Shown: one piece after another, positions 21,801-40,822 of the stretch
Position numbering within the stretch: the first letter of the stretch is position 1
Layout: each line of letters starts with the position of its first letter
NCBI GenBank assembly: GCA_009829735.1
Contig: CM020620.1
Coordinates: forward strand, 18,248,354 to 18,312,353
Length of the DNA: 64,000 nt
Source: Pyropia yezoensis
Lineage: Eukaryota > Rhodophyta > Bangiophyceae > Bangiales > Bangiaceae
Reading direction: 5' to 3'
The notes under the pieces: model-generated
Seen by the model: only the letters and a program-made list of their open reading frames with translations
Databases searched by the model: none
Told to the model about the DNA's origin: nothing
Made by a program: the position numbers and the translations under genes

Positions 21801-22682
21801 ACCGCTTCACGAAACTTACGCGAGCGATCCCACTGGCAGAGATCACGGCCATGTCGGTCGTGTCAGCCTTCCTAGATCACTGGGTTGCCCCGTATGGCAT
21901 CCCAGATAGTACACTATCGGACAAAGGACCGCAATTTGCGTCTGTACTGTTTCAGGGAGTGCTGGATATGTTGGGGGTTAAGGCAAACTATGCCACCCCC
22001 TACCACCCACAAACTAATGGGCAGGTGGAGCGCTTCAACAAAACTATTGTTAGGCAGCTACGCCACTATGTGAGTGAGCACGTAAAGACGTGGGACCAAT
22101 ACATTTCTATCCTTACTACTGCCTACAATTCGCAGGTTCACTCATCTACAGGGGAAGTACCCCTCGCTTTTGTGACCCCCCGTCGCGTGCGGTCTATTGC
22201 CGTGCGGCGGTCGCTCCCAACTAGGGAGGATGGTGGCAGTACGCCTACTCCTACTGAGAGTAAGGCGGAGTTCGCCGCTAGGCTTGAAAACCTCATCCCT
22301 AAAGTCAGGGCTGAGATGGACAAAGCACAAAAGCGCTACAAGCGTACCTTTGACAAAAAGGTGCGCAATGCTAAACATGTCCCCGAGCAGGGTGACTGGG
22401 TGCTGGTACACTCGCACACCCCAACTGGGGGTAAGCTGGTATTCCAGACGAAGGGACCGTACCAGGTCCTTCGTACTGATGGGCGGCGCTTCACCATCGA
22501 AAGTGACGATGGGGTCCGCACAGTGAACGGACAGGACGTGGTCAAAATTGCACCACCGCCTGCAGGAGACCCAGCTTGGGCGCGTGCGTTGGAATCGTGG
22601 CGCCTCCCCTCACTGCCTGCGGCCAAGCAGGGCCCACAGGAGTACGTGTTCGATAAGTTCATCGACCACGGATGGGATGAAG
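18848..22682 (+). pseudogene. pol: B3 Pol, main part, interrupted by element C
   Basis: The ATG at 18848 overlaps the gag stop (gag tail 18756-18851). Protease, RT, RNase H and integrase are in frame and complete, with YLDD and the D,D,E residues present. The integrase motif reads SDKGPQ where B1 and B2 have SDNGPQ. The frame enters the chromodomain (HGWDE) and is cut at 22682 by the family-C LTR. The last codons resume at 33538. With the chromodomain displaced this Pol would end in LTR-encoded residues. Confidence 0.9.
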
Positions 22683-23045
22683 TGTAGCAATATGGTTGTC
22701 CGTATTGTGACCCTAATATTAGGGGGGCTACTTCTAACCCTTAACTTTCAATTTGATAGTTCGTACTGGTCACGGTATCTATAAGTTACGTATGACCAGA
22801 GGGACTTGCATCTTGGGGTGGAGGGTAGTTAGTAGTGTCTCCGAGGGTTTATAACGAGGGGGCCGGTGGCGAATCCACCGCCGGCCAAGGTAGAACAACA
22901 AACCCCTCCCATTTGGGCTCCCATCTTGGTCCCGTGGCTTGCGCTCCAAGGACAGCAACCTTGGCCTCCCGGTGACGTTGGTGCCGATCCCCCTTGGTGA
23001 GTGTTCCCTGAGAGTGGACGCGCGACGGATCCCTATTGTGCTACA
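22683..23045 (+). repeat. C 5' LTR (363 bp)
   Basis: It starts TGTAGCA and ends TGCTACA, a 7-bp terminal inverted repeat. Inside are the 14-bp palindrome CCCTAATATTAGGG (near 22711), a possible TATA box TTTATAA at 22848-22854, and a hairpin GGTGG/CCACC just after it. The TATA assignment is inference. Confidence 0.93.
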
Positions 23046-23046
23046 T

Positions 23047-23064
23047 TGGTGGAGCAGCAGGGGA
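23047..23064 (+). promoter_or_regulatory. Primer-binding site of C
   Basis: TGGTGGAGCAGCAGGGGA begins one base after the LTR and is identical over 18 nt to the site in family B, although the LTRs of the two families are unrelated in sequence. Both families therefore seem to be primed by the same tRNA. Confidence 0.75.
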
Positions 23065-23270
23065 CGGGTTTCCGTCACCCTTGTGGTGACGCCGTCTTCG
23101 GCCCTGGCACACGGATAGGGATCCGGTCCTTTTCTTGTACTCGTGGTGTTGCGACCTGATCGATTGTGTTGAGCTTTTACCTGTGACTGTGACCTACTGT
23201 TACTCTCCCCAATCTACCCCCTCGCTCTCTTATTCGTGGTGGTCGTTGCGTCGGTTGACTGATTGTGACC

Positions 23271-25454
23271 ATGTCTACCCAAGAGACGGGGAACGTTCAA
23301 GATGACGGATCGGCGTCGACGCCGACCCCGGAGGTGACTACGGGAACCGGGATCGGGAACCCGATCGATAACATTGAGACGCCAATGCTTTCCGGTGCCG
23401 GATCGACGTTTGGCACGGCTCGGACGGCAGGAGGCGGGGGCCCGCCTCAACTGTCGTCGACCGACCTCACTCCGCCGCCTCCTTCACCAGGGGATTCCCT
23501 GATGGCATCGTTGGCCCGCATCGAGGCCCGGTTTTCCGGGCTCGACGCCCGTCAAGATCGGACGGAGGACGCAATGGCAGTGTTGATGTCAACACGGCAC
23601 ACGACGGGACCCCGTCGTGTTCCTCCCACACCGGTACGGTTCGAACCGGCCGGACTACTTTCGGAGTCCACCAGGGTCAACCCCGGTGTTGCTACTCCTG
23701 GACAACCCCCGGACACAATGGGGTATGGGTCCGACTCGTCGGCAGAGTTGGAACGGAGTCACACGGAGCGATACGCTCGGAGCACCCGAAGCGGACTCCG
23801 CGGACACGACCCGGCGGATACGTACGCCGGTGGAGAGTCGGTTACTGGGGGAGGAGGTACCCTCTCGCAGTACCCCCACGACGAAGGAGGCCAAGCAACT
23901 CGGGTTCCCGAGGTGCCGACGCCTGAAGTACCATCTTCAGTGGTGGAAGCTATGACCGCGCAGGTAACTGCGAGCCTACTGAAGCGGATGGAGTCCGATG
24001 AGTTCGCTCATCAACTGGCTAAGCGACTGGATATCCAGGACGCTGACACGGAGATCGTCAACGAGGTCTTCCGGTCGGTTCTTACTCCGGAACGTTATCG
24101 TTTGGAGGACCGCTCTACCACCGTATCGGAATCGATGCGTAATACGTCGCATCGGGCGATCCGCTCTATGCAGACCCTTATGAAGGGAGTCCCTATGTTC
24201 GGGGGGCCGAACGGACGCCCGTTGGCAGTCATCGGCTTCTTGACTAGCTTCAAGGCAGCCGCAGACAAGGCGCTCGTTAACGAGGGGCTGGCTCTGGAGA
24301 TCCTCCCGTTCTTTGTTGATGAACGGGTGCGAGGCATTCTTCGCCAGGCATCCCCGATGCCGGGAATGAGGGTCGCGGCCACCCCCATGGATTACCGTGG
24401 GATATTGAAGGAGCTGCTGAGCAGCTACCTCAGTGAGGACAAGTGCGAGGACCACTATCGGGCCCTTCGCACTGCCACCGCCCAGTCCTGGGAGGATGAG
24501 GAGATGTTTGGACGCCGGATCCAAGAGCTCGACTACGAGCTGGGGAAGCTCCTCGGAGAAGGGGAGCTACGGGCCATCCTGTTCGCAGGAGTACCCAACT
24601 ACGTGCGGATATCCGCACGGGGCGCCAACACGGCACGGACGAACTTCAGTCGACTGATGCATATGTGCAAGTCCCTAGGGGACGCCTACCGGGTTCTACA
24701 CCCGGAGTGTGCCTTGGCCCCGAAGCCCAAGGGTGAGGGAGGCAAGCCCAGTCTTACCCCGGTACCGAGCCAAGAGAAGGTGGAACGCAAGGCCGCACCA
24801 GTACTGGTGGCGACCGAACATACCCCTATTGGTGAGGATGACCCTCTAGTCGACCAACAGGGCCACCTGTTGCTACCGGCGACGCCGGTGATTGATGAAC
24901 ATGGTACGGTAGCGTACATCGCCCCGGCTGGAGCCCAGTTCCAGGTCAACGAAGGAACGGGACGGCGCGTCCCGTATGTGCGGACTACGGGGTACTCCCC
25001 GGTGACGGGTAACCCTCACCAACCCTTGCCAACATGGGCGGTGCGCACGGAGGCACCCCCGCAGATTGCGGGCCGACCCAACCGGTTGGGGGAGTCCATG
25101 TTCCGGTTGACCCAAGGACCCAAGGCCTACCAGGGAGCAGGCACTCGGGCGCCCGAGGGAGGCAACCGTAGCTACGGGGCTACCCCGATGCGACCTCAAG
25201 GGGGGACCGGCACGTCCGGGTGTATGTTGTGTGGGGATCCCCAGCACTGGGTGTCTTCCTGCCCACTCATCCCCGAGGAGTCTCGGCGGGCAGCGGCGCA
25301 ACGCAAGGCATCCACCGGGGGGTATCCCGCCCGAGCACCCGGACCCGCACCGGGTAGGCAGCCAGCTCCAGGTGGAGTACTGGCCGTCGAGGGGGCACCT
25401 CCTCAGCCGGATGTCCCGGCGGACAGCACCCTACCAAGGGCGGGAAACGAGTAA
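23271..25454 (+). CDS. gag: C Gag polyprotein (727 aa)
   Basis: The ATG at 23271 is preferred to an in-frame GTG six bases upstream. The N-terminal 220 residues are Thr/Ser/Gly/Pro-rich. A helical capsid-like region follows (about 235-470), and near the C-terminus is a single CCHC knuckle (CMLCGDPQHWVSSCP, around residue 650). The protein ends GNE, as B Gag does. The stop TAA is 8 bp before the pol ATG. Apart from the general layout and the C-terminus, the sequence is clearly diverged from B Gag. Confidence 0.9.
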   Translation: MSTQETGNVQDDGSASTPTPEVTTGTGIGNPIDNIETPMLSGAGSTFGTARTAGGGGPPQLSSTDLTPPPPSPGDSLMASLARIEARFSGLDARQDRTEDAMAVLMSTRHTTGPRRVPPTPVRFEPAGLLSESTRVNPGVATPGQPPDTMGYGSDSSAELERSHTERYARSTRSGLRGHDPADTYAGGESVTGGGGTLSQYPHDEGGQATRVPEVPTPEVPSSVVEAMTAQVTASLLKRMESDEFAHQLAKRLDIQDADTEIVNEVFRSVLTPERYRLEDRSTTVSESMRNTSHRAIRSMQTLMKGVPMFGGPNGRPLAVIGFLTSFKAAADKALVNEGLALEILPFFVDERVRGILRQASPMPGMRVAATPMDYRGILKELLSSYLSEDKCEDHYRALRTATAQSWEDEEMFGRRIQELDYELGKLLGEGELRAILFAGVPNYVRISARGANTARTNFSRLMHMCKSLGDAYRVLHPECALAPKPKGEGGKPSLTPVPSQEKVERKAAPVLVATEHTPIGEDDPLVDQQGHLLLPATPVIDEHGTVAYIAPAGAQFQVNEGTGRRVPYVRTTGYSPVTGNPHQPLPTWAVRTEAPPQIAGRPNRLGESMFRLTQGPKAYQGAGTRAPEGGNRSYGATPMRPQGGTGTSGCMLCGDPQHWVSSCPLIPEESRRAAAQRKASTGGYPARAPGPAPGRQPAPGGVLAVEGAPPQPDVPADSTLPRAGNE

Positions 25455-25462
25455 GAGGAAGG

Positions 25463-28400
25463 ATGACCGGGGGGCGCTGGGGTCACCCAAGCAAGCCACC
25501 CCGGAGTACCGCGGGGAAAGCCCCACGGAGAGCGCGGTTGAGCCGACGCCGCATCAACCCCCGGGTACACCTTCCGGCCCCTACGACACGGCGTCAGGGG
25601 ATTGATGACCACCCTCCAAGGTTGGGAGGAGAGGACGGGAAGCCCCGTCACGTTGAACCAGACAAGGGCCCTGTTCAGGATGCCCGAGCTACACCGGATA
25701 TCGGTGTAGGACATGTGTTGTTTACCTTGGAGAACTTCAAGGTATCAGCCACACTGGGGGTTGACCCCCAGTCGACACGATCGTACTACCCTGTACTGGA
25801 TACAGGGGCTGGACCCAACCTTATCCGGAAGGATACCCTCCCGGACAAGTGGCTTCCACGAGTCAGAGTGACTCGGGGACCCACCATCAAGGACGCGAAT
25901 GGTCGACTCATTCGTACGACCGCAGCGATGTCGCTGCAGGTTACCATCGGGGATCTCACCACGGAAGTTGACTTCCTGGTATGTGAAACGCTATCGGTGC
26001 CCTGCATACTGGGGTGCACCTTCATCAACGTTCACGTTGATGCAATCCGGCCAGGCCGGAGGACCGTCGAGCTTCAAGAAGCCGACGGGACGAAGCGAGG
26101 ACACACGGCTATCGTCAGGGACCTGACGCTACAAGGAAGCCACGTTAACGTGGCTGAGGTGTACGCAAGCGTCGAGCCGAAGACACTTCGGTTGGCCAAG
26201 CGAACTCGCTTTGAGCCGTTGTCAGAGACAGTCCTCCCGGTTAACTGCGACCTCGCAGGCATCTGCAGAGTCCAGTCCAACCTACGGACGTACAAGCGCC
26301 ATGGGTTGACCATGGCCAACGGTCTCATAGACCTCCCAGCAGGAGGGTCGTCCCTCCTAGTGATGGCGAACTACCGCCGTAAGGCAGTCACCCTCCCGAA
26401 GGGAACTATCCTCGGGATTGCCGAACTCTACGAAGGAGATATCCTTACCCCTGATAAGGAAGGTCAAGTGGAACCACTTGAAGTACTGGCGGTCGCCGAG
26501 ACCACCGAGCGACAGCAACCCGATGACGGGAAGCCTAACCCATCGGCGGCTCCGGCGGACCTGCCGCCAAAGGACCAAGAGGCCTTGAAGGCACTGGCCG
26601 AGGCTGACCTCGACCACCTTCCCCCTTCGGTAGCCGAAGGGGTACGACGGATGCTAAGAAAGCATGACGTTATGTGGACAGGCGGGGCCTTGGGGACCAT
26701 TGGGGCAACCCAACATCGTATAGACCTGGTACCAGGCGCACGACCCGCCCGCTCACAACCGCACCGAGCGGGACCTATGCAACGAGAGATCGTTGATGGA
26801 GAAGTGAAGAGGATGAGTGAAGCTAAGGTGATCCGACCTTCGATGTCGGAATGGGGTGCCCCAGTCGTTATTGTGCCCAAGAAGGATCAAACCCCTCGGT
26901 TTTGCATCGATTATCGACGCCTCAACTTGGTTACCAAGAAAGACTCATACCCTTTACCAAGGAAGGATGAATGCATCGACTCCCTGGGGGAGGCTACGGT
27001 GTTTACCACCATCGACTGCAATGCCGGATACTGGCAGATCCCGGTGGCGGACGAGGATATCCCCAAGACGGCATTCGTCTGTCACAGTGGAGTGTACGAG
27101 TTCCTAAGGATGCCCTTCGGATTGTCCAACGCCCCCGCTACATTCCAGCGGGCTATCGACATCATACTGTCTGGGGTGAAGTGGCGTAACTGCCTAGTGT
27201 ACCTCGATGACGTCATCGTCTTCTCACGTAACATGGATGACCATGTACAACATGTTGACGAGGTACTCACCCTCTTGAGGAACGCCGGGGTAACCCTGCG
27301 TCTGAAGAAGTGCGCCTTCTTCCAACAGACGGTCGAATATCTGGGCCACCAGATAACCCCTGGTAAACTAGGGTTGCTCGAAGCCAATACCCGGGCACTC
27401 CGGGATGCCCGGTTCCCTAACACCCAGACGCAGCTCAAGAGCTTCCTGGGAATGTGCAATGTATACCGACGGTTCGTCAAGGACTTCGCTCGGATAGCTA
27501 AACCGTTAACGGTTCTTACGAGCAGTACCTTACCCAAGGTACTCCAACCCCCTTCGCCTAGCGAAGAGGAGGCATTCGAGTCGCTGAAGCGAGCCCTACT
27601 AGCCCCACCCGTCCTTGCGTTACCGCATAGACGGGGTACCTTCGTCATCGATGTCGATGCGTGTGATACACAAGTGGGATGCACCCTGTTACAGGGAGAG
27701 ACGTTGATCGGTACCGATAACGTTATCCCGGACCTACGTCCGGTAGGGTACTTCAGCCGGACACTCAACCCGGCTGAGCGGAACTATAGTGCCACCGAGC
27801 GTGAATGCCTCGGAGTCATATGGGCAGTGCAACTGCTCCGTCCATACCTGGAGGGCTCCAGGTTCATCGTGAGGTCCGACCACGAACCCCTACGATGGCT
27901 CCTCAACCTTGGTGACAAGGATTCCGATAGCCATGGGAGGCTAGCCCGATGGAGGCTGAAGATGGCCGAGCACGACTACCGCACGGTATATAAGGCTGGG
28001 TCAACCCACCACCTCGGAGACGCGTTGTCTCGACTCGACACACCGAGCGGGGATACCCGCCCGGTGGACGAGGACATCCCGGTAGTACCGGTGTGCATGG
28101 TGGGTAATGCTACCCAGGGTATGGCTGACCATACCATGGCACACCTTGCGTGCCCATTGACCCTCGCGGACTTCCGCGAGGCACAGGCCAACGACGATGA
28201 CTGTAGACGTCATCGTGCTAACCTCCTGGCCGGTACGGCCGGCATCTTCTCCGAGAACGAAGACGGACTCATATACCGGCGGGCACCCGCCGATGGACGA
28301 CATCAAGTCGTGGTTCCCGTGTCCTTACGGCAAGCCGTCATGGAACGAGAACATGAGAACCCTACAGCCGGACACCCGGGGGGTTCACGTATGTTCGCAG

Positions 28401-29629
28401 CAATGCGAAGGTTCTTCTACTGGCCAGCAATGGCCGTCGACGTGGTCGACCACGTAAGGGGATGCCACCCCTGTGCGCGTAACCGCATGAGTCTACATAG
28501 GCAGGCGTCGGCCATGAAGCTATTCCCACCCGATGGGCCCAACGAGCAAGTCGCTATCGACATACTCGGGCCACTTCCGGTAACGGAAGAAGGGAACAGG
28601 TACATCCTGGTCATGTCTGACCGATTCACCAAGCTGTCACGAGCGGCAGCCATCCCGAATGATACGGCATACACGATTATGAACGCAGTGGTTGACCACT
28701 GGATCAGTGCATACGGAGTCATGAAGCAACTCCTCTCCGATAACGGAGCAAACCTTACGTCAGCATTCTGCACTAAGGTCCTGGGCATGTTCGGTATCGA
28801 ACCACGTCGGGCATCCGACTACCACCCGCAGTCCAACGGGCAGGTGGAGCGGTTCAACCGCACCATCGTAAAGATGCTACAGTGCTACGTGGCCGAGCAC
28901 ACGAACACTTGGGACAGGCTTCTGTCCGTACTCACCCTGGCATACAATGCCAGGCCACATCGGAGCACAAACACTGCTCCGCTGGAGTGGGTCATGCCAC
29001 TAGGCGTCGGTAACCTGACGCTGCCACCCGGCAGGTGCACTCGGTATGATACACCGAAGGGCCGACCCGCCGAACGCATCCACCTAGCTTGGTTGGCCAA
29101 GCTATCGTGGATGATTCCTAAGCTCAAGGGTGCCCTTGACAGAACACAACTTCGGTATAAGAAGAACTTCGACGCCCGACTACGGGTGCGCAACGCAACC
29201 CTGGTAACAGGTGACTGGGTCTATATCAGACACCAGAAGTTCCGAGGGAACAAGCTTATGCAACCGGTCAAGGGACCGTACCAGATCCTCCACAGAGATG
29301 ACCACTCTGTTATCTTACACTCCGATACGGCGATCCAACGCATCAGTATGAATGATGTCACACCTGCTCCGAAGCCGGAACAGCCTCAGCCGGTACCGGC
29401 TGGGTTGCTACATGAAGCTCTTACAACCCACCGGTCGGATGACCCGGTGGGACCGGATGGGATTCCATACCAAGTAGAGAGCGTGGTCGGACACACCGAC
29501 CCGGACATACCAGGACCCTGGTACGTCAAGGTTATGTGGGTCGGATACGACTCACCCACCTGGGAACAGGCGGCGAATATACCCCGCCAACTACTCATGC
29601 CTTACATGAGGCGACGACGCCTACTGTAA
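25463..29629 (+). CDS. pol: C Pol polyprotein (PR-RT-RH-IN-chromodomain, 1388 aa)
   Basis: Protease has DTGAG at residue 113. RT has YLDD at 580-583. RNase H has IDVDAC and TERECLGVIWA. Integrase has an HHCC finger and D1033, D1093, E1129 with D,D(35)E spacing. A chromodomain closes the protein (YQVESVVGH to YMRRR). All checked catalytic residues are present and the frame is open throughout, so the element may be active. Pol begins at its own ATG downstream of the gag stop in another frame (GTAAGAGGAAGGATG). The coding DNA is unusually dense in perfect short inverted repeats, for example 25753-25772, 26023-26042, 26138-26155 and 26622-26642. Confidence 0.95.
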   Translation: MTGGRWGHPSKPPRSTAGKAPRRARLSRRRINPRVHLPAPTTRRQGIDDHPPRLGGEDGKPRHVEPDKGPVQDARATPDIGVGHVLFTLENFKVSATLGVDPQSTRSYYPVLDTGAGPNLIRKDTLPDKWLPRVRVTRGPTIKDANGRLIRTTAAMSLQVTIGDLTTEVDFLVCETLSVPCILGCTFINVHVDAIRPGRRTVELQEADGTKRGHTAIVRDLTLQGSHVNVAEVYASVEPKTLRLAKRTRFEPLSETVLPVNCDLAGICRVQSNLRTYKRHGLTMANGLIDLPAGGSSLLVMANYRRKAVTLPKGTILGIAELYEGDILTPDKEGQVEPLEVLAVAETTERQQPDDGKPNPSAAPADLPPKDQEALKALAEADLDHLPPSVAEGVRRMLRKHDVMWTGGALGTIGATQHRIDLVPGARPARSQPHRAGPMQREIVDGEVKRMSEAKVIRPSMSEWGAPVVIVPKKDQTPRFCIDYRRLNLVTKKDSYPLPRKDECIDSLGEATVFTTIDCNAGYWQIPVADEDIPKTAFVCHSGVYEFLRMPFGLSNAPATFQRAIDIILSGVKWRNCLVYLDDVIVFSRNMDDHVQHVDEVLTLLRNAGVTLRLKKCAFFQQTVEYLGHQITPGKLGLLEANTRALRDARFPNTQTQLKSFLGMCNVYRRFVKDFARIAKPLTVLTSSTLPKVLQPPSPSEEEAFESLKRALLAPPVLALPHRRGTFVIDVDACDTQVGCTLLQGETLIGTDNVIPDLRPVGYFSRTLNPAERNYSATERECLGVIWAVQLLRPYLEGSRFIVRSDHEPLRWLLNLGDKDSDSHGRLARWRLKMAEHDYRTVYKAGSTHHLGDALSRLDTPSGDTRPVDEDIPVVPVCMVGNATQGMADHTMAHLACPLTLADFREAQANDDDCRRHRANLLAGTAGIFSENEDGLIYRRAPADGRHQVVVPVSLRQAVMEREHENPTAGHPGGSRMFAAMRRFFYWPAMAVDVVDHVRGCHPCARNRMSLHRQASAMKLFPPDGPNEQVAIDILGPLPVTEEGNRYILVMSDRFTKLSRAAAIPNDTAYTIMNAVVDHWISAYGVMKQLLSDNGANLTSAFCTKVLGMFGIEPRRASDYHPQSNGQVERFNRTIVKMLQCYVAEHTNTWDRLLSVLTLAYNARPHRSTNTAPLEWVMPLGVGNLTLPPGRCTRYDTPKGRPAERIHLAWLAKLSWMIPKLKGALDRTQLRYKKNFDARLRVRNATLVTGDWVYIRHQKFRGNKLMQPVKGPYQILHRDDHSVILHSDTAIQRISMNDVTPAPKPEQPQPVPAGLLHEALTTHRSDDPVGPDGIPYQVESVVGHTDPDIPGPWYVKVMWVGYDSPTWEQAANIPRQLLMPYMRRRRLL

Positions 29630-29707
29630 CAACCCAACCGACACCGACTTCGGCTGTTGGGGGGTGAGGCTTATACCTACTAAGTAGGGTGTGACATGGT
29701 TACGGCA

Positions 29708-29827
29708 GACTTAGGTTTCTAAGTCAAATCAGACTTAGGTTTCTAAGTCGAACCAAGCTTAGGTTTCTAAGTCGAACCAAGCTTAGGTAACTAAGTAGAG
29801 CTAAGCTTAGGTAACTAAGTAAAAACC
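29708..29827 (+). repeat. Five tandem 24-bp repeats, each a hairpin, between C pol and the antisense ORF
   Basis: Units start at 29708, 29732, 29756, 29780 and 29804. Each holds an inverted repeat of the form CTTAG-GTTT-CTAAG or CTTAG-GTAA-CTAAG followed by a short A-rich spacer. The block sits where the sense and antisense transcripts must converge, so a role in 3' end formation or transcript insulation is possible but unproven. A second pair of repeats, GGGAGGATRACCTCCCCAAGC, follows near 29899 and 29936. Confidence 0.9.
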
Positions 29828-30134
29828 TGAACCTTAATAAGTTAACTTAAAGGTAAAGGCTAACTCCGATAATATCGAAGTAACTAGGGAGCTTACACGG
29901 GAGGATGACCTCCCCAAGCCAAGACACAAAGTGAGGGAGGATAACCTCCCCAAGCATGAACCAACCGGAAGAAGTTGGGCGGGAGGCAAGGCACCACTGA
30001 GCCAGAAGGGGTACTCCCCAGGGCAGCAAACAGAGGCAAGCAATGCCCCCAGCGGGGGATGAGTTTATACTCACTACTACCCGGCTACCATAAGGGTTGC
30101 CGGGGCCCTCTCCCTCACAAACAAATAGCACTCC

Positions 30135-32582
30135 TCAGTGGGTAGACCCACTGCCCGAGGGAGGCCACTCACGCGTAAGCGCGTATACCTCCGTGCTCCA
30201 CCGGTCGGCAATGTCACGACGGTCGACCACCCGAGTTACCTCGGTGCATAGCTGGACGAGGGTGCTGCGGCCAGCCTCCACGTCCTCCAGAGCTTTCTGG
30301 AGGCGGTCCAGCACGCCACCGAGGCAACGCGCTGACCCAACCAGCGCAGCACCTGGGGGGATATCCCCCCAGCTAACAGAGAGACCCCCACGCATTGCGC
30401 GGGTAACAAGGGCGTCAACGCCTTCATACCAGAGACGGGGACCCCCGTCATGTAGGACAGGGGCGGGAGGTGACACTGGCGCAGCCAGAGGAGCCATAGG
30501 AGCCGACACGGCTACCACCGGAGCCGGTGGCACCTGATACGAGGCCCGGTAGGACCCTACCGAAGGGGCTCCACCGTAACCACGGCGGTACTCCGCCCGA
30601 CGACGGGACACCTCACGCTCCCCACCCACAGAGCCCCACTCTCGGGGACGACGGCCAACCGCCGCCGGCATCGGGTTACCGAACCACGGAGCAAGGACCT
30701 GAAGAGGGTCATGGATAACCATGGGAATACCCAGGTCAGGAACGGCCTCGGTGGACGCCCACCCATGGCAACTAGGCTCACCCGGCTGAGTACGCCGGAC
30801 ACGCAACGAATGACGAGGCAAGGGGGAAGCCCCAGCCTGCGGGTCCCGGTACGGGGGAAGGGCCAACACCCCAGCCCAGTTCACGGCATCGTGAACAGCC
30901 AGCAGGGCTTCGAACTCCCGGGCCAACCCGGTCTTGGCAGCTATCAGATCCACGCCCAACTGCGCGATGTGCCGACGGACACCCGTCGGAAGATGAAACA
31001 GACGACCCTGCCGGCGGACGGACAGCAAGAAGGATGAAGCCTGCCCGAGGGTAACCTCAAGGGTGAAGGTACCCTGCAACGGGTGGACCGGCCGGGAGGC
31101 CAACACACTCCCGAAGTATCGGAGGCAGGAGCCGGTGTCAAACCGGAAAGCAGGGGCGGGTTCCCACCCCTCCTGCCATAGCGGCGGGCGCACGGGAGTA
31201 TATACCGGAGCACGACCGTTGCCGGTCTGCAACGCACACGTTATATCCGTGCGGAACGCATCCGCCATGACACCATGGTTACGTCGCCAACTCGACGCCG
31301 ACTTCAACGCCGCCATGGGCGGGTAGGGAGCCGTCAACGACAGATACGGGGGTACCCCCGGGTAGTAGTCAAAGTCGGGATACCGACCGGTACGGCTCAC
31401 CGTCTCCCCAAACGCAACCGGCTCCGCCGCCGCCGCAATCCCCCGAGCACTAGCCGGGTAGTCAATCTCCCGCGGCAACGCGGGGGCAATCAAGTCGCAG
31501 ACCCCGAAGTTGGGGTCGAGGTAGACCTCACCCCGTCCCAACCGGGTGCGCCAGAGCTGCGCATGCCGGTCGTCCGGCTGACTCAGGATCCAATGGTGTT
31601 CCACCCGGACCGCGTTCGGCTGGTTGACCAGCCGCACCAACTCCCGCTCCCAGCACGGGTCCACCTTGACGCGCCGGGAGGATTCTCCACGGGGATGCAC
31701 CAGGTGGAAGTCCACCCGCATACGCCCATCGGACTCCATCGACTCTTGCACCGTGAGGCCTCGAACCCGAGCCACCAAGTCGGACACCGACATGGCGGGT
31801 TGACCCGCCGCCACGGCGACGCCGCCACCCAACGGGGCAACCCGGGCAGGACCAGGAAGAATCGGGGGCGCCGGGGGACGCACCACCGGCAGAGGGGCCG
31901 ACGTCGGAGATGGACGAGGCCGAGGAGGAAGAAGAAGGGCGGGCGCCCGCCCGGAGTAACTCCCGGTGTCAACCGCCATGGGAGAAGGAGCGTCTTGACC
32001 GCTCGACGCCCGCGGCACCGCAGGTACGGCACCGGCGCCGGCACCACCCGTCGGCGTAGCCCCCGCCTCGGAAGTGGAAGGCACTGGGACAGCCTCCGGA
32101 GCCGGAGCCCCGGCTGTGCGGACACCCGCACCGTCTTGACCCACCGCACCGGGTGTCGCACCGCCACCACCACCCGCGTCAACGTCGGGACCACCTCGAG
32201 GAGTCACCGCCCGGACACCCGGACCACCTTGACCAGCCGGAGTCGGCTGCGGGTCGCCACCTCCGCCGCAGGGCGGACCATCTTGGGGTAGCTGCGGTGA
32301 GCCGGCACCGGCACCAGGCCCCATCCGGGCAGCCGGCAGAGAGGGGGTAGAAGCCGCCACGCGCGGTTGACCGCCGGGTTGACCTCCGGCCGACGGCACC
32401 GTCGTGCCGCTGCACACGGACGACAGTCCTCCGGCCGACAGACGGACGGACACCGCAGGCCCGTCGTCGTCAGACGAGCTCACCCCGTAACGCGCGGCGT
32501 CGGGACCGACAGGCGCGTCGTCCTCCATCTCCTCCCCGATCAGGAGGTCTTCCTCCTCTTCAAGCACCTGGGGATAGGACAT
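30135..32582 (-). CDS. C antisense ORF, 815-aa protein of unknown function
   Basis: The ORF lies between pol and the 3' LTR on the strand opposite gag and pol. The first ATG is at 32582; the open frame extends upstream to 32864 without another ATG. An acidic start (EEEEDLL) leads into a long Pro/Gly/Ala-rich segment (about 40-240), then a folded-looking central region and a C-terminal segment that may form a coiled coil. The central region has the pattern YFGSV, then GRLFHLP about 35 residues on, matching HFGSV and GMLWHLP at the same spacing in the B antisense protein. No zinc knuckle, protease, envelope-like signal peptide or membrane segment is visible. Promoter unknown. Confidence 0.8.
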   Translation of the reverse strand: MSYPQVLEEEEDLLIGEEMEDDAPVGPDAARYGVSSSDDDGPAVSVRLSAGGLSSVCSGTTVPSAGGQPGGQPRVAASTPSLPAARMGPGAGAGSPQLPQDGPPCGGGGDPQPTPAGQGGPGVRAVTPRGGPDVDAGGGGGATPGAVGQDGAGVRTAGAPAPEAVPVPSTSEAGATPTGGAGAGAVPAVPRASSGQDAPSPMAVDTGSYSGRAPALLLPPRPRPSPTSAPLPVVRPPAPPILPGPARVAPLGGGVAVAAGQPAMSVSDLVARVRGLTVQESMESDGRMRVDFHLVHPRGESSRRVKVDPCWERELVRLVNQPNAVRVEHHWILSQPDDRHAQLWRTRLGRGEVYLDPNFGVCDLIAPALPREIDYPASARGIAAAAEPVAFGETVSRTGRYPDFDYYPGVPPYLSLTAPYPPMAALKSASSWRRNHGVMADAFRTDITCALQTGNGRAPVYTPVRPPLWQEGWEPAPAFRFDTGSCLRYFGSVLASRPVHPLQGTFTLEVTLGQASSFLLSVRRQGRLFHLPTGVRRHIAQLGVDLIAAKTGLAREFEALLAVHDAVNWAGVLALPPYRDPQAGASPLPRHSLRVRRTQPGEPSCHGWASTEAVPDLGIPMVIHDPLQVLAPWFGNPMPAAVGRRPREWGSVGGEREVSRRRAEYRRGYGGAPSVGSYRASYQVPPAPVVAVSAPMAPLAAPVSPPAPVLHDGGPRLWYEGVDALVTRAMRGGLSVSWGDIPPGAALVGSARCLGGVLDRLQKALEDVEAGRSTLVQLCTEVTRVVDRRDIADRWSTEVYALTREWPPSGSGSTH

Positions 32583-33169
32583 GATAACGGGTGCGGAGTC
32601 CCCCGCGCCCACAAGCCGTCGACGGCTACAACCCGGTACGGCGGGATAACCGGGACGAGCCAGGGAAGCGCGGACACCCGCGCTTATGACCACAAACGGC
32701 CACGAGAAGCGCCGCAGGCACGCGGGTCGACCCGCGCCCCACGGGGCTACGACCGCGCTCCACCCAGGCACCTGGGCGGGACGAGGCCACACCCACACAC
32801 GGGGTAAGTAAGGGGGGTCACCCCCAACCGCCCCCACGCAACGCGGGCAGCCCCCGCCCCCCACTCAATCGTCCACACGAGAGGGGCCCCCCTACCACCA
32901 GGCACCTGGTGGCGGATCCGCTTGCACCACCCCTCGGAAAGGGGGGGCGTGAACAGCAACCCGCATCGGGAATTTAACGGTCCGGAAAACGGATCGTGTG
33001 TGTGTACCACGCAAAGGGGGGCACCCCCCTGAGACAACCTCGAAAAGGGGTGTCTGTCGCGACGGGGCGCAAAGCCCCACCCGACGGGTAAACGGTCACG
33101 CGACCCACTTACATTCGGTACCCCGAATGCAACTCGACCCGAGGACGGGCCGAATCTAAGGGGGGGATA

Positions 33170-33532
33170 TGTAGCAATATGGTTGTCCGTATTGTGACCC
33201 TAATATTAGGGGGGCTACTTCTAACCCTTAACTTTCAATTTGATAGTTCGTACTGGTCACGGTATCTATAAGTTACGTATGACCAGAGGGACTTGCATCT
33301 TGGGGTGGAGGGTAGTTAGTAGTGTCTCCGAGGGTTTATAACGAGGGGGCCGGTGGCGAATCCACCGCCGGCCAAGGTAGAACAACAAACCCCTCCCATT
33401 TGGGCTCCCATCTTGGTCCCGTGGCTTGCGCTCCAAGGACAGCAACCTTGGCCTCCCGGTGACGTTGGTGCCGATCCCCCTTGGTGAGTGTTCCCTGAGA
33501 GTGGACGCGCGACGGATCCCTATTGTGCTACA
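33170..33532 (+). repeat. C 3' LTR (363 bp)
   Basis: It is preceded by the purine tract AAGGGGGGGATA and followed by the TGAAG duplication (33533-33537). I see no difference from the 5' LTR. Confidence 0.95.
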
Positions 33533-33537
33533 TGAAG

Positions 33538-33797: not shown

Positions 33798-35741
33798 CTA
33801 GGCACGCATGCTAGACTCTCCCACTCCACGGCCCTCGCCCTCACGTGGAGGCGAGCGGCGAGACCCACGCCGATAACGGTCTCCACTTGTTGAAGGGGGC
33901 GGCGGCTCCAAGTCGGAACCGTCGCGTCCCTCACGGTCGCGCAAGTGGCGCAGACCGTGGCCACTCTTCTGCCTGGTCTTGCGCGCAAGTTTGCGACGCA
34001 GACGCTGGACAGACTCCGTCTCCGACGGGGTAGAGGACTCCGAAACGGAATAAGACAACTCGTCTTCCGATACGGAAGGAGAGCGCCGCGAGTGTCGGCG
34101 ACGACGGCGAGGAGGCGAGTATGCCCGGCTCGCGCGACCTTTGCCACGCCCAAGTTGGGCTGGCTGGGGCATAATAGCCCCTATGCGAGCCAACTCGGCT
34201 GTCATAAACTCCGCCACCGACTCGCAACTCGCGGTCGCCACTGCAGTACGAACGCGCTCCTCAAGTTGAGGAGTCTCGGAACTCTGTAGGGTTGCGGTCG
34301 ACGCGGCCAACCAGGAAATGGTGCGCACCAACGTGGTGATCATCATCTCTGAGGTTAGAGGCGTGGGCGGCAACACCAACTTGGGGTATACCGTCAGGAG
34401 GGTGGCCCCCAAGTTGGGGGACACCGGGGTGGAAGACTCCACGGCCACGCTGATCGGGATGTTCCCGTGAGGTTGGAAAGGAACAGGAGGAAGCGGAGGG
34501 GCCCGCCGAGGTGGCGGTACCCGGGTGTAACTACGACCCCGACTTGGGGCCCCCGCAGTGGGTTGAGTCATATGGTTATCATAGGACGGCACGGCCATAA
34601 CTATGGGCTTGTCCGGGGGTGGCGCAGTGTGGCGATCCACCCCCGGGGCACACGGGTAGTCCCCGATGACCAACCCCTCTCGTAGGACCACACGGCCGTC
34701 GTGAAGTTCACGAGCGACCCACACGAACTGGCGAAGTGCGCCATCGTCCTTGGGCCCACGAGTGGGGCGGCGCAACTTGTGCTCAATGCTCTCCCACTCG
34801 ATAAACTTATGGAGCCGGAGCATCTCCTCAAGTAGAGTGAGTTGTCCTGATGAGCACCCCTCAGCAACTAGCTGAGGGGTGAGCTGTTCCAAACCTTGGA
34901 GGAGCCGGAGGGGGAGATGCCAGAGCATCCCCCGCCGCTGAACACAGGACACCCAGGTCGACATGACCTCGAGGAGCCACTGGGTGGCCAACATGGCCCA
35001 CACCAGGTGATCAGGGGCAGCCGTCAACATGACGGAGCCGAAGTGGTCAAGCAACCGTGGCAACAACGCCGGGAACCCGTAGGGGACCTCAACTTGAGGC
35101 CACCACTCGGGCTTCTTCGGATAGTACTGCTCCTTACTGGCAGCAGACTGTTGAGGAAACTCAAGTTGAGCCGAGGTCACCAAGTAGGGACCTCGCCGGA
35201 AGTCTTTCTCCATCCGCACATCAAAGCGATGAGTGTGCGGATCGGCCTCGTGGAGGTACGGTGGGCGAGTTGCCACAGCGTCCCACGTGAAGGTCGGCAA
35301 GTCGCCGGGACCCGGGATAGTTCCCCCGCGGTCCACCATGGCCTTGGCACGCTGAACGTCCTCAACCTCCTCATCGTCCAGGAAGGCAAACTGGTCCGTC
35401 CTGAAGCCGGCAGGGAACCCGACCCTACGGGGATACTTCTCCCGTAGGCGGTCCCATACCCGGCCCATCGCTGCGCCAAGTCGGCCACAGCGAAGAACAG
35501 TCAGCCCCTCCTCATAGAGAGGCCAAGCGGGGTAAAACCACCGCCCCAAGGCCTCACGCGGGACAACTTGTCCCGCCTCCGGGGGAGACCCCGCCGTCAA
35601 CCCAAAGCCGGGTGACGCGGGAGTCCCGTCCCCCGGAGCGATCGCGGAGCCCCCGCCGGAAGTCCCGGCGGGTGCTGCCCCGTAGGAGGTGTCCTCCATG
35701 CGCTCGTCAAGAGAGTCCGTCTCCACTCCCGGAGTCGCCAT
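33798..35741 (-). CDS. B3 antisense ORF, intact 647-aa protein of unknown function
   Basis: The ATG at 35741 has a good context (GAGAGTCATGGCG); the frame is open further upstream to 35912 without another ATG. It converges on pol, with the two stops 111 bp apart. Residues 1-60 look disordered. A central globular region rich in Trp and Leu follows (roughly 70-400, with HFGSV and GMLWHLP motifs), then a Pro-rich linker. The last 130 residues are Arg/Ser-rich (SPPRRRRRHSRRS), which suggests nuclear localisation or RNA binding. The ORF is also intact in the B copy at 52202-54145 and has a diverged counterpart in C, so it appears to be under selection. Function unknown. Confidence 0.85.
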   Translation of the reverse strand: MATPGVETDSLDERMEDTSYGAAPAGTSGGGSAIAPGDGTPASPGFGLTAGSPPEAGQVVPREALGRWFYPAWPLYEEGLTVLRCGRLGAAMGRVWDRLREKYPRRVGFPAGFRTDQFAFLDDEEVEDVQRAKAMVDRGGTIPGPGDLPTFTWDAVATRPPYLHEADPHTHRFDVRMEKDFRRGPYLVTSAQLEFPQQSAASKEQYYPKKPEWWPQVEVPYGFPALLPRLLDHFGSVMLTAAPDHLVWAMLATQWLLEVMSTWVSCVQRRGMLWHLPLRLLQGLEQLTPQLVAEGCSSGQLTLLEEMLRLHKFIEWESIEHKLRRPTRGPKDDGALRQFVWVARELHDGRVVLREGLVIGDYPCAPGVDRHTAPPPDKPIVMAVPSYDNHMTQPTAGAPSRGRSYTRVPPPRRAPPLPPVPFQPHGNIPISVAVESSTPVSPNLGATLLTVYPKLVLPPTPLTSEMMITTLVRTISWLAASTATLQSSETPQLEERVRTAVATASCESVAEFMTAELARIGAIMPQPAQLGRGKGRASRAYSPPRRRRRHSRRSPSVSEDELSYSVSESSTPSETESVQRLRRKLARKTRQKSGHGLRHLRDREGRDGSDLEPPPPSTSGDRYRRGSRRSPPREGEGRGVGESSMRA

Positions 35742-36079
35742 GACTCTCCCCAAGTTGGGGAGAGACGCTCTGGCTATCGCAGCACGAGACCCGCCTCGAG
35801 TTGAGGGGGACTCGGATCGTGGGTATACGGGTGGCCTCCCCAGCGTGGGGCGGCCCAGTGGAAGGTGAAGGGGAGGTGGTGGTGATGGTGAAGTGTGAAC
35901 TGAGGAGAGCAAGCTGCCGAGTGGGCAAGCTTGAGGAGAGGGGCGTTCAACGTGACCGCCTCCACATCCGTGTTACGTACTCGATGGGGGACAGCAAGTC
36001 GCGCCCCCAACGCCGAGACGTGCGTTTACGCACCCCCTCACAGGGCCGACCGGGTCGGTCGGAACTGAGGAGAGGGGAG

Positions 36080-36553: not shown

Positions 36554-37083
36554 TGCAAAAAGCTCAGGAGACTGCCATGACCGCTATCAAGAAGGCCAAT
36601 GAGACGCGCTCGGCGTACGCTATCCGTCGACGCCGACCATGTACGATCGCTGTCGACGACCTCGTGCTCCTGAGCACCAAGAACCTTATGCCGGACGCCT
36701 TCCAGGGCGCTCGCAAGTTGATGCCCAAGTTTTCGGGACCATACCGAGTCACTGAAAACATCAATGATGTTACGTTCCGTCTGGATCTGCCTCAAGCAGT
36801 CCTTGATCGAAAGGTGCACAACGCCTTTCACGCCAGTCTACTCAAGCCGTACAACGCTGATCCGTATGGTCGACTTCCTCCCGCTCCAGCTCCGGTAGCA
36901 TTTCCGGACGGATCGGTTGAGTACGAAGTGGACTCCATTATTCGGTCACGAAAACGCCGTGGACGACTGCAGTACCTGGTCAAGTGGAAGGGCTGCGATG
37001 TCAGTGAGAACACCTGGCTAACCACGCAAGACCTCGACAACGCACCTGGGGTTCTCGAAGCCTTCCTTCGACGCACGTCCTAA
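36554..37083 (+). pseudogene. pol: Element A pol, 3' part with chromodomain
   Basis: It completes the frame broken at 2455: codon 2455+36554-36555 encodes the expected Leu. The segment holds the end of integrase (the GPYRV and FHASLLKPY motifs typical of Ty3/gypsy) and a clear chromodomain (EYEVDSIIRSRKR, LVKWKG, NTWL) before the stop at 37081. The stop TAA is also the start of the purine tract that precedes the LTR. Confidence 0.92.
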
Positions 37084-37093
37084 GGGGGGGAGG

Positions 37094-37160
37094 TGTAAGG
37101 ATTTCCCCCCTAATCCCATGCCTAATACTTAAGGGATAATATCTGGGACCTCTCCTTACA
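37094..37160 (+). repeat. Probable 3' LTR of element A, only 67 bp
   Basis: It follows a perfect purine tract (AAGGGGGGGAGG) and has an 8-bp terminal inverted repeat, TGTAAGGA to TCCTTACA, of the same style as the B and C LTRs. At 67 bp it would be exceptionally short. The 5' LTR is outside the window, so the right boundary cannot be confirmed, and a longer LTR reaching the TATA-like box at 37692 is the alternative. Confidence 0.45.
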
Positions 37161-38289
37161 GATCCTGCCGAATCAACTCCTGGCAACATGGATCAACTCC
37201 TTGTATTGTGGGGCATGACGCGGTGTACCTTCCAGACGCAAGATGAGTCAGCCGCTGTCTCACGGTGTCTGCCGGCCGCACGACAGCAGCCATCGACAGC
37301 CCATCATGGCCTGTCGAAAGGCGCCACCGTCAGCACCCATGACGAGCCACATCTGCCACAGCTGGCGAGTCCGTTAAAATGTCCTCGCTGCAGCATTGCA
37401 GCGATGTGACTGGCTAGCCGGCTGGCCGATTCGGCCGACTCGATCGAATCGTGGTTACACGCCTCTCGGACCATCGGGCCGACTGGCGTCTGGAGCCGGC
37501 TGGGGCGGCGCCCTAGGCGCCGCACGCCGGACCCCTTCGTTTGGGGCAAACTGGGGCTGCACTCCTTTAGTGCGCACGCCCGCCCATGCTTTGTTCTGAG
37601 AGCCATGCTTTGTTTTTGGGCCGTTTTGTGCCTACCGGTGGAGCGACGGGGAAACGCATGCTTTGGGGTACCTCGGGTGCCCCGACGCGAGTATATAGTG
37701 CGTGAGTGTCGGCGCCACCGGGGGAGACCGGAAGGGCAACCACAGACACAGACCAAAGACGACCTTCACCCTTTGAACCCTCTCGATCACCACCGACGTC
37801 GCGCCGTCCTCTTCCCCAGACCCACCACCGTCACCACCTCCATCCTCTTCCCCGCGCCCTGTCGCTCTATTGGCTGGCACGGGTCGCTGACACCATCACG
37901 AGTACGTTGTGGGCTGCCCAAGTGTGGGTGGTTCCTCACACATTCGCTCCGACAGATATGGTCGGTCCTGACCAACGTGGGCGTCGCCGGGACCGTGAGC
38001 GTTCCGACCTCAGGGTTAGAATGACGCGCGGAGTGGAGGATATGGGGCTGCTTCGCCCGGGTATGGGGCCTATGTTCTGAGGCAGACGGCTTGTGCATGC
38101 GTAAACCTAAGTCACCTGCGACACAAAGTAATAAAACCGAGAAGACAGAATAGCCTACATGAATGTCTCTGCCTCATCCTCCCGCCCAACACTATCACCC
38201 ACACGCTCACCCTCGGATTCGGCACGCGACGATCCGGCACCACTTGCGTCCGTCCCCGGCGCCGCAGGTACAGACGGCGGGAACAGAAT
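37161..38289. other. Unassigned region with a TATA-like box and an AATAAA
   Basis: No recognisable protein is encoded. GTATATAG at about 37690 and AATAAA at about 38131 would bracket a short plus-strand transcript, but the open frames between them start at non-ATG codons and look like chance frames. The stretch 37400-37500 is rich in small palindromes. Confidence 0.4.
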
Positions 38290-39590
38290 TCACTCCAGCT
38301 TCTGCTTCACAGCGGAAATGAAGCGCGGGTCAGCGTCGGTCTCGCGCAGGTTTTTTAAAGTCTCAGAGAGCGTGGCCAGCTCACTAAAGCCAGCCTGCTT
38401 AGTGATAGCTTGGGTAAGGGCCGTTGAATTGGCGGCTTGCGAGGCCATCGCGCCCTGGTCGTCCATCTGCTTGCGCTTGCCGCGGTTCGTGACCATTACG
38501 CGTGTCGCTTGTTCGGGAGGCGTCCGGTCGTCCCCCTCCACGCCATCGCGACCAATATCTGGTGTGACGAGCGTCAAGACGACGTCGTTTCCTTGGAACA
38601 GGTGGAAGCAATAGTCCAGGAGCGTGTCTCCTTTTGAAAGGCGCCCCCACAGGGTGACGTCGTTTTGACATGAGCTAGAGAACTTCTTGAACGCAGGCCA
38701 GAAACACGCCCCCAGCTGAACAGTCATACAGAAGACAAGAAAACACGCCACAAGAAGCCAAACGCCAGCGGGCCACACGTGCGTGAGAGACGGTCACAGC
38801 AGATGACATATCAACGTGGGCCACGACAGATACATTGAGCTCCAAGCAGAAGGGAAAAGCGGTGACGTACATCGGACCATCTCGACCTGAGTGCCTCCTC
38901 GGTACGAATGTGGGGGTGCGTATTGGGGTCGATGGCCCCATCGGTACATCCAGCAGGCACATCAAAAGTCCAGGGGCAGTTAAACATCGGGGTCACAACA
39001 ACCACCCAGACAGACCCGCGAGAGGTCCGCGCATCCTGCTGCTGGCGGGACATCACACCTAGAGACGTCACGACGCCGGCAGCCACCTCAGGCGTGCACA
39101 AAACGTGTGCCAGGCGCGCCTTCTCATGTTTCGTACATGAGGGGGCCCGCGGTGTCGCCTCGCCTCCACGACCAGACGTCGGGTCGACCGCCCTTGAGCC
39201 ACCCCGAGCGGCCGGCGTTCGGGCCACATCCGAAAGCGCCGCGGTCGGCGTCATCAGTCGGTCGCCGGCGTCAGCCTCGGCCGACGATGCGTCTGGCCCG
39301 GTGACAGCCGTGGCCGCCGTCGTGGCCGGCGCGTCGACAGGAGCAGCCGACGATGCGGCCAGCGCAGGCCCGTCATCCGGCGGGGCTGACAGCGGCAGCG
39401 CGCAGCCTTGCGATGCGGGAGGCACCGCCGCCGCCACCGCACCGCCTGGGGCCGGACGGTCGGACGGGGCCCGCAGTGCCACGCCGTTAGCGCGGCAGCG
39501 CTCAACGAGAGCCGCCTTGAAACCGGCAGTCGATAAACCACGTTCGCTCAACAACATCCGCAGCGTGTCAACGGTAATACGTGATGCCAT
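38290..39590 (-). CDS. SAP-domain protein, two exons, 381 aa
   Basis: The ATG at 39590 has a strong context (ACCACAATGG). Residues 3-37 (ITVDTLRMLLSERGLSTAGF onward) fit a SAP DNA-binding motif. A low-complexity Ala/Pro/Ser region follows, then a helical region starting near TKHEKARLAHVL and continuing to RSRWSD. There the frame meets a strong donor (GAT|GTACGT). I propose an intron at 38716-38870 ending TTCAG, which joins RWSD to LGACFWPAFKKF and an open exon to the stop at 38290. The joined pattern (HVRT-like, RWSDL, LLDYCFHLF) recalls the Myb/trihelix-like proteins that often accompany SAP domains in transposon-related genes. It may be a host nuclear protein or a captured transposon gene. 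The intron is inferred, not proven. Confidence 0.6.
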
Positions 39591-40509
39591 TGTGGTCAGA
39601 AGGTGGAAGGATGTGGTTGGGGCGGGGCAGCGGAACGAACGTGGCTCGTGGGGAGGAGGCGGAAAGTTTTTGCCAGAAGGGCAACAACGGACGCCGGCGT
39701 CGAGCGGTGTGGACATACAAAAAATGACCTCTGATCGAGAACAAGTTGCGTGACACCCGAAGGAGTTCACTGGCTCAAATATTGCACCCTCGCATTAAGT
39801 CTTTCGGGGAGCGATGCGGCGCAGCCTCTCAACGTACGCGGCGGCGCCGCGTATGTTGCGTGCCGCGCTGCACCGCGGGGCCCCGCCGCGTGCCGCCAGC
39901 CAATGGGAGTGTCGCATCCCGGGCTGCAGCATCTGCGAACGCGGTCTGCAAACAGGCCTGAGGAGGAGGGCGTGCCATAGCCTGGCAGGCGTTGCTGATG
40001 CGCCCCTGGATGGACCATTTGATTGGCCACTTAAGATGTAGCCCATCTATGTAAGCTACCACTTCTCTAAAGTATCCGCACTTTTTCTCAGCACTGCTAA
40101 AGTAGGCAAAATGTGCAAATTACACTAACCCCGCTCTATCTCTGTCAATTTTTGACAATTGAAGACGAAAGCGTGTGCATTCGACAGCTCTCGATGAGGC
40201 GGATCTGGTGGTGGCGCCAGCTCAAAATGTTCCGGGTCAAAAATAATGAGGTTTCTAAAGTAACCCGCCACAGGTCTTGTCGCGCCGAGTGCGCGCGGGG
40301 CCCAGATGCAAGAGTAGGGCCTGATCTGTAAACTTAGTACGCTACAAACTACTAAAAAGTACACTGTGACGGGGCAGAGGGCGCACAAGCGAGGTCAGTC
40401 GCAGTACATCTTGAGTCTTCCCAAGTCGCCAACTCAGTCCTCATCGGGACGACAAACTGGTAACGGTTGTGGCTGCCAATGCCCTGTTCACCCTGCTCGG
40501 CAGCCTCCC
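39591..40509. other. Upstream region of the SAP gene; no gene seen
   Basis: Several open frames occur but none has a recognisable product. CCAAT-like boxes occur at about 39899 and, inverted, at about 40021. The part 40060-40260 is less GC-rich than its surroundings. The insertion site of element D is at its right edge. Confidence 0.4.
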
Positions 40510-40627: not shown

Positions 40628-40822
40628 TGGTAGCTGCCTCATCCTCTCGTCTCTCCTTCTTCCTCGGGCGGTCCGCGTGGAGCGGTCCGTGTTGCTCACC
40701 TGGGGGGTGCTGTTGCCGTGCCTTGGGAGCCCGGCGGTTTTGTGTTCTTCCATTCGTATCGTGTCCTTCTTTCCTCCCCCCCCCCCCCTCCCTTCCCTCC
40801 CTGTGCTTCCCCTACGGCTGCC

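Follow-up and report, generated by a model that had tools for sequence, protein, structure and literature searches.

Why is the coding DNA of a retrotransposon filled with short perfect inverted repeats? The question is raised by element C, a Ty3/Gypsy long terminal repeat (LTR) retrotransposon at 22683–33532 in a 64,000-nucleotide (nt) stretch of the red alga Pyropia yezoensis (assembly GCA_009829735.1, contig CM020620.1, positions 18,248,354 to 18,312,353; hereafter, the window), where it lies nested within a copy of a second element, B. An earlier note, made from the letters alone, had reported eleven such repeats in an 890-bp part of C pol (25753–26642). We find that both B and C carry, throughout the element, an array of short stem-loops that appears from comparisons of copies to be conserved by selection, mostly at synonymous sites. 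Our tentative explanation, to which we give somewhat less than even confidence, is that these selected stem-loops are dispersed recognition sites for a predicted nucleic-acid-binding protein encoded by the element.

Inverted repeats were counted as perfect arms of at least 7 bp with a loop of 0–5 nt. Each of the eleven was recovered at the same place and with the same arms, and a twelfth lies in the same 890 bp (25789–25807). The observation that the pattern continues beyond the reverse transcriptase (RT) also held (examples at 28162, 29085, and 28440), and the rate of about one repeat per 2 kb expected by chance agrees with our shuffle counts. The 29 repeats of C pol compare with 1.3 in dinucleotide shuffles (maximum 3, 100 shuffles), 2.1 in synonymous shuffles (maximum 6, 100 shuffles), and 2.2 when the dinucleotides at codon junctions were preserved as well (maximum 8, 60 shuffles). 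The gag, pol, and antisense open reading frames (ORFs) of C were all far outside the range of codon-preserving shuffles, with an excess of about 13-fold in pol and 6- to 7-fold in gag. The counts for the reading frames in the window are as follows.

23265–25454, plus strand, gag ORF of C: 13 inverted repeats against 1.0–2.1 expected
25463–29629, plus strand, pol ORF of C: 29 inverted repeats against 1.3–2.2 expected
30135–32864, minus strand, 909-aa antisense ORF of C, located after pol and before the 3′ LTR: 15 inverted repeats against 1.6–2.0 expected
3020–4990, plus strand, gag of B1: 17 odd-centred stems against 3.8 (dinucleotide shuffles)
4987–8970, plus strand, pol of B1: 21 odd-centred stems against 6.3 and 13 even-centred against 6.2; loop rule N-A-[C/G]-T-N
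33798–35912, minus strand, antisense ORF (704 aa) of the B copy split by C: 7 inverted repeats against 0.9–1.6 expected
46–2469, plus strand, pol of element A, the negative control: 1 inverted repeat against 0.5–0.9 expected

Among 12 ORFs of B, nine contain 5–9 inverted repeats, one contains 3, and two short pieces contain 1 and 0 (0.1–1.6 expected in each). A looser count (at least 6 of 7 pairs) gave 115 stems in C and 56 in B1. With imperfect stems included, the two elements are about equally structured, though B has fewer perfect repeats. In C gag and pol, the surplus is confined to small loops (0–5 nt: 42 vs. 3.9 expected; 6–9 nt: 8 vs. 1.6; no excess at 10 nt or more), and B1 retains a smaller surplus at longer loops (10–15 nt: 6 vs. 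2.3; 16–25 nt: 8 vs. 3.9). As for direct repeats of 7 bp with gaps of 0–5 nt, C gag had 1, C pol had none, and the antisense-ORF stretch had 5 (raw counts). Forty other ORFs of at least 300 aa, taken from 20 arbitrarily spaced 10-kb stretches, contained 166 inverted repeats against 129 expected, a surplus that sits mainly in two ORFs of 81–82% GC. Separately, weak odd-centred dyads at 36600–43400 numbered 28 against 11.9 in dinucleotide shuffles, supposedly owing to the codon periodicity of GC-rich coding DNA, and this result warns against relying on dinucleotide-only controls.

Individual stem-loops of C pol are listed here together with their fate in related copies (L040, L041) and in a related family (L044).

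25753–25772, stem-loop ACTGGGGGT TG ACCCCCAGT, unchanged in L040 and L041
26023–26042, stem-loop CATCAACGT TC ACGTTGATG, with one broken pair in L040 and L041
26113–26128, stem-loop CGTCAGG GA CCTGACG, retained in L044
26138–26155, palindrome AGCCACGTT AACGTGGCT
26464–26481, stem-loop TCAAGTGG AA CCACTTGA, absent from L044
26622–26642, stem-loop CCCCTTCGG TAG CCGAAGGGG
28162–28181, stem-loop CCTCGCGGA CT TCCGCGAGG
28277–28292, stem-loop CGGCGGG CA CCCGCCG, identical in C, L040, L041, and L044
28440–28455, palindrome ACGTGGTC GACCACGT, lost in L044, which has a new dyad 11 bp away
29085–29104, stem-loop TAGCTTGG TTGG CCAAGCTA

The arms had been described as unrelated to each other, and their sequences do differ; what had gone unnoticed is that the hairpin heads obey a family-specific rule. 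When the repeats were aligned on their centres, the head of C was centred between two bases, with a 4-nt loop closed by GG/CC, and that of B was centred on a base, with the 5-nt loop N-A-[C/G]-T-N; both heads are palindromic or almost so. Because this first alignment had been selected by pairing, it was repeated with sites picked by the head alone. Pairs flanking the 185 GG....CC sites of C matched in 51, 59, 45, 37, 38, and 30% of cases at offsets 4–9, then dropped to 21% at offset 10, against a background of about 27%, and at 17 CAA.TTG sites in B they matched in 88, 71, 59, 47, 41, and 24% from offset 3 onward, with pairing at these head-selected sites over by offset 9–10. CC....GG and GG...CC sites in C, and GG....CC sites in host stretches, were near background. 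At sites selected by their stem, the loop is unpaired (match rate 0.20 at offset 0 and 0.82 at offset 2 in C; 0.30–0.35 at offset 1 in B, background about 0.25). On the coding strand, loop centres were biased toward TG, but not clearly more so than GG....CC sites without a stem. Odd-centred stems are also in excess in C pol (21 vs. 6.6; e.g., 25859–25875) and fall outside the main head rule.

Covariation was tested by shuffling partners within alignment columns and counting Watson-Crick pairs. The 185 GG....CC sites of C contained 428 such pairs against 256 after shuffling (standard deviation [sd] 13), compared with 161 against 164 at 129 CC....GG control sites, and 39 AA.TT sites of B contained 106 against 59. 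The arms at head sites are therefore complementary to each other irrespective of their sequence. Family L044, with about 77% identity to C in pol, follows the head rule of C. A single repeated motif is ruled out since the stems differ and the head alone is common, and a simple dimer site on double-stranded DNA is unlikely, since it leaves the free covariation of the two arms unexplained and since loops of 6–9 nt are enriched too.

The combination of a variable stem with a conserved, family-specific head suggests hairpins that are read by a protein, and the numbers of stems in C and B1 suggest that the hairpins act collectively, so that individual ones could be gained or lost. Under the explanation we tentatively prefer, each family's own nucleic-acid-binding protein would bind dozens of its hairpins on a single-stranded form of the element, either genomic RNA or its cDNA. 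Binding might compact or package the element, or mark it as self, as dispersed packaging signals do in some viruses. Candidate readers would be the zinc-knuckle protein Gag or the product of the antisense ORF. The Gag of B carries a Pfam zinc knuckle; that of C, which was assigned from its place and its similarity to B gag (24% identity), had no Pfam match and shows a CCHC-like knuckle by eye.

We also compared 350-nt folding windows with dinucleotide shuffles. On the plus strand, the minimum free energy difference (MFED) was 14.2% in C gag-pol, 10.8% in the 3′ part of C, 15.3% and 14.1% in B, and 16.4% in L044; the corresponding minus-strand values were 14.9%, 7.0%, 14.6% and 13.8%, and 14.0%. 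Element A reached 7.3% (sd of windows 8.0) on the plus and 2.4% on the minus strand, and copia −0.4% and −2.6%. The plus-strand values of a pair of host-like ORFs were −0.4% and 2.6%, their minus-strand values −0.5% and 4.2%. The published threshold for genome-scale ordered RNA structure (GORS) is a folding energy 3% below that of order-randomised controls. B, C, and L044 lie beyond this threshold, as does A on the plus strand, but not on the minus strand (2.4%). With 120-nt windows, G.U pairs allowed, and codon-preserving shuffles, the excess was 6.7–20.5% on the coding and 10.0–20.5% on the opposite strand (A: 2.2% and 0.8%). With 45-nt windows, G.U pairs forbidden, and dinucleotide shuffles, all five B- or C-like pol pieces had an excess of 30–45%, compared to −5 to 6% in eight other sequences (A, copia, four host-like ORFs, and two other Gypsy fragments, L013 at 2% and L014 at 1%). 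The low structure of L013 may reflect decay because it is a broken copy. Over the initial 2004 nt of the pol genes, surplus pairs span less than 20 nt in C and less than 30 nt in B, so that both elements have short-range, sequential stem-loops. The statement of the earlier note that elements A and D lack the pattern thus holds for the inverted-repeat counts of A and for the copia-like ORFs (which element it meant by D is uncertain), but A has a slight folding excess (4–10% in the analysis of pair spans and 7% by MFED).

These values invite the explanation that the elements simply have a generic genome-scale ordered structure, in which compact local pairing serves stability or hides the element from RNA interference or RNA sensing and no protein reads the hairpins. 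The MFED of B and C gag-pol (14–15%) and of L044 (16%) is near the level of a coronavirus, with about 15% for SARS-CoV-2 and 7.5–10.7% for hepatitis C virus in PMC7642675, and the features described there (unbranched sequential stem-loops, poor positional conservation, and a drop in diversity at paired sites) recur here. Nevertheless, a family-specific loop length and loop or closing sequence would not be expected of generic structure, nor would the equal minus-strand excess in gag-pol or the lack of a gain from G.U pairs, and we consider this explanation rather unlikely.

The behaviour of G.U pairs bears on which molecule is selected. At the GG....CC sites of C, all mismatch classes were depleted alike (ratios: G.T 0.70, A.C 0.77, other 0.74). 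Leave-one-out mismatches leaned slightly toward A.C in C (ratios: A.C 0.63, G.T 0.44, other 0.42) and slightly toward G.T in B (0.85 vs. 0.56 and 0.59); we tentatively read these opposed leans as noise. Forbidding G.U pairs in 45-nt windows with codon shuffles raised the excess in all 12 strand tests of B and C, to 19–41%, a result that is weak on its own because A and copia also rise slightly and a low share of G.U pairs partly follows from having more Watson-Crick pairs. Neither the mismatch classes nor the new changes have a consistent G.U preference, and G.U-tolerant RNA hairpins are accordingly unsupported. Selection for a structured genomic RNA, one of the causes proposed earlier, is therefore borne out in part: the folding energy is low and paired synonymous sites change less, but G.U is not preferred to other mismatches on either strand, which leaves genomic RNA as one candidate for the selected molecule. 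A role in host silencing, also proposed in the earlier note, would be a further candidate cause.

This indifference to G.U, together with strand symmetry, would fit a function at the DNA level, namely hairpins in single-stranded DNA (cDNA, or the strand displaced during transcription) or cruciforms that the antisense-ORF protein reads and, for example, uses to block the silencing of its own family, in the way that VANC proteins of Arabidopsis act through a motif. Covariation in Watson-Crick pairs and the palindromic or nearly palindromic heads agree with it, as does the homologous antisense protein encoded by both B and C. This protein family occurs at 30135–32864, 33798–35912, and 52202–54316 (all on the minus strand) and in Pyropia vietnamensis; in protein searches with the C and B queries, every homologue with a named source came from that species, and the named relatives of the C protein are six hypothetical proteins (P0008: 49% identity over 99% of the query). 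The C-terminal part of the B protein is basic and rich in arginine and serine. However, the antisense ORFs of B and C had no Pfam match, no DNA-binding fold was found in their product, and the head rule is common to C and L044 despite antisense proteins that are only 52–55% identical over the part compared. Cruciforms of such small size seldom form in relaxed DNA. We regard a DNA-level function as improbable, and to the same degree its narrower version, an element-wide hairpin code in DNA rather than RNA that the element's own, possibly antisense-encoded, protein reads on single strands. If the latter were true, the element would recognize itself by shape and loop rather than by a fixed sequence.

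Selection and mutation make different predictions for changes at paired sites, which were examined among few and related copies in comparisons that reuse sequences. Between C and L040 (91% identity in pol), 12 of 31 even dyads are common to both, and none of the 44 changed pairs in even dyads was compensated. Third positions were tested with dyads from one copy and codon-matched divergence between two others. Changes in dyads were 0.20–0.88 of expectation in 12 of 12 comparisons (z ≤ −2.0 in 8), which share four sequences and are not independent; odd dyads were also low. In the 3′ region, 1 of 50 dyad pairs changed between B and L013 (86% identity) and 4 of 59 in the reverse direction, against 25% in controls; two B pol pieces had 0 of 8 and 4 of 25 pairs changed, and no compensated change was seen in any B comparison. 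Among C-like copies about 20–28% diverged from C in the 3′ region, 15–31% of dyad pairs changed compared to 25–39% of controls (dyads had the smaller share in 11 of the 12 comparisons, and one was a tie). Per changed pair, compensated changes were above the control in all 12, on counts of 1–5 each; for example, GTCGG/CCGAC in C corresponds to AACCGG/CCGGTT in four other copies.

Pooled over copies with both directions counted, single changes were 0.44–0.74 of control in the even dyads of C-like copies and 0.35–0.67 in B, where even dyads (48 pairs) were not conserved for transitions (1.54 and 1.12). Compensated changes in C-like even dyads stood at 0.96–1.10 of control, and the clearest case of compensation is in the odd-centred dyads of C pol (2.44). 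In L044, even dyads had no compensation in six pair tests, and odd dyads had it in one direction (p = 0.003) and not in the other (0.19). The check proposed earlier, whether compensatory changes keep the arms paired, thus gave weak signs in the 3′ region and in odd dyads and a chance level in even dyads.

The repair or template-switch process proposed in the earlier note is not supported as a current process. A mutational origin would have fold-back (snap-back) copying during reverse transcription build the hairpins, with the loop preference set by the enzyme of each family. Quasipalindrome correction and short template switches would yield short, perfect inverted repeats whose loops are small. 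Such an origin is compatible with the Watson-Crick pairing, the symmetry between strands, the occurrence of hairpins in both coding and non-coding DNA, and a loop rule that depends on the family, and the compensated ratio of the odd-centred dyads in C pol also agrees with it. The excess of compensated changes that it predicts is, however, missing from B and from even dyads; in the latter, compensated double changes stay at chance while single changes are roughly halved. The pol set contained 28 compensated changes, against about 29 by chance and about 145 predicted under hairpin-copying mutation (if about half of the missing single changes were converted into compensated ones). Purifying selection with site turnover fits the data better than ongoing hairpin-copying mutation, which we disfavour as a current process, and a mutational origin is quite improbable.

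An artefact of composition or codon structure, to which the repeats and odd-parity bias of some GC-rich host ORFs might have pointed, is practically negligible because the excess survives codon-, protein-, and dinucleotide-preserving shuffles and the CC....GG control, A, copia, and host-like ORFs have no comparable effect.

Several results count against protein-read, selected hairpins. The binding proteins are candidates only, and the structural model of the antisense ORF is poor (predicted local distance difference test score, pLDDT, 39), too poor for a structure search. That G.U fares no better than other mismatches on either strand is odd if the target is RNA. The 3-nt centre of B, A[CG]T, was not accompanied by arm covariation when taken alone (299 sites, 461 vs. 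466 pairs), and two control centres were weakly over expectation, both by about 2 sd: T[CG]A had 419 pairs in B where 384 were expected (sd 15), and A[CG]T had 378 in C where 349 were expected (sd 14). L044 and C share only 4 dyads out of 19 and 12, pair tests with L044 indicated conservation at p < 0.05 in two of six, and third-position tests with L044 were significant in none of nine. The compensatory signal is weak, and it comes from the same few, related copies.

Element C itself is young and complete-looking. It has the gag gene, the RT-RNase H-integrase order, the LTRs, and the target-site duplication of Ty3/Gypsy elements, and its two 363-bp LTRs, free of mismatches, together with the 5-bp duplication indicate a recent insertion. 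Its boundaries are as follows.

22678–22682 (left copy) and 33533–33537 (right copy), target-site duplication TGAAG flanking C
22683–23045, plus strand, 5′ LTR of C, TGT...ACA, with zero mismatches to the 3′ LTR
33170–33532, plus strand, 3′ LTR of C

The pol ORF encodes RT, RNase H, and integrase, and a protease match scored under its cut-off. B has the same layout (gag, pol, and an opposite-strand ORF before the 3′ LTR), and the two elements share 41% protein identity in pol and 24% in the antisense protein (BLASTP E-value 8e-10). In a search of the assembly (107 Mb in 11 contigs, nearly all of it in contigs of 43.6, 34.3, and 29.4 Mb), all 150 scored matches to the C RT, out of 4080 candidates, had 98–99% identity.

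Behind C pol, at 29708–29749, lie short tandem GACTTAG-GTTT-CTAAGTC units whose number seems to vary among copies. The window contains 1000 N in total near 11–12 kb and 48 kb, which probably mark two gaps in the assembly, both within nested B copies. Elsewhere (G000:C2:9881144-9892504), four antisense-ORF matches on one strand (L034–L037) are spaced by exactly 3489 bp and represent a tandemly repeated segment of a C-like element, with L035–L037 identical across 3894 bases. In L020, a stretch that contains 500 N, two overlapping protein alignments at 4270–5181 (49% and 73%) match C pol residues 1–305, possibly through a local duplication.

Known systems resemble these arrays in part. GORS of positive-strand RNA viruses likewise has small sequential stem-loops in coding sequence, an MFED of about 15%, turnover of positions, and lower diversity at paired sites; in our elements, paired sites are less variable among close copies (not significantly so against L044) and positions are poorly conserved. 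By contrast, the carriers here are LTR retrotransposons with a similar minus-strand excess, no G.U preference, and a family-specific head. The dispersed packaging signals of MS2, other viruses, and hepatitis B pregenomic RNA also combine variable stems with a common loop feature spread through the coding genome (PMC6281560), and B and C have many stem-loops of this kind; the stems of B and C (56 in B1 and 115 in C by the loose count) are not known to bind a coat protein. In the VANC/VANDAL anti-silencing system of Arabidopsis, a family-specific cis motif occurs many times and the element encodes an accessory protein, but the motifs are fixed and lie in tandem non-coding repeats (PMC5735166), whereas the stems of B and C vary and sit mostly in coding DNA (gag, pol, and the antisense ORF). 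Antisense accessory ORFs with the position (between pol and the 3′ LTR) and orientation of those in B and C are found in the plant elements Retand, Grande, and RIRE2; an antisense ORF between pol and LTR is described for Retand in PMC11963269. Retand usually has TRP28, unlike B and C, whose antisense ORFs lack a Pfam match. Among the titles listed by searches of open-licence papers, none describes comparable folding in an LTR retrotransposon.

The purpose of genome-wide ordered folding is a matter of debate for the positive-strand RNA viruses that are known to have it. LTR retrotransposons of a red alga that fold about as strongly as a coronavirus, next to other elements of the same genome that lack such folding or nearly do, offer a clean contrast within one host, and the family-specific heads together with the indifference to G.U make the folding molecule and the protein that reads it testable questions.

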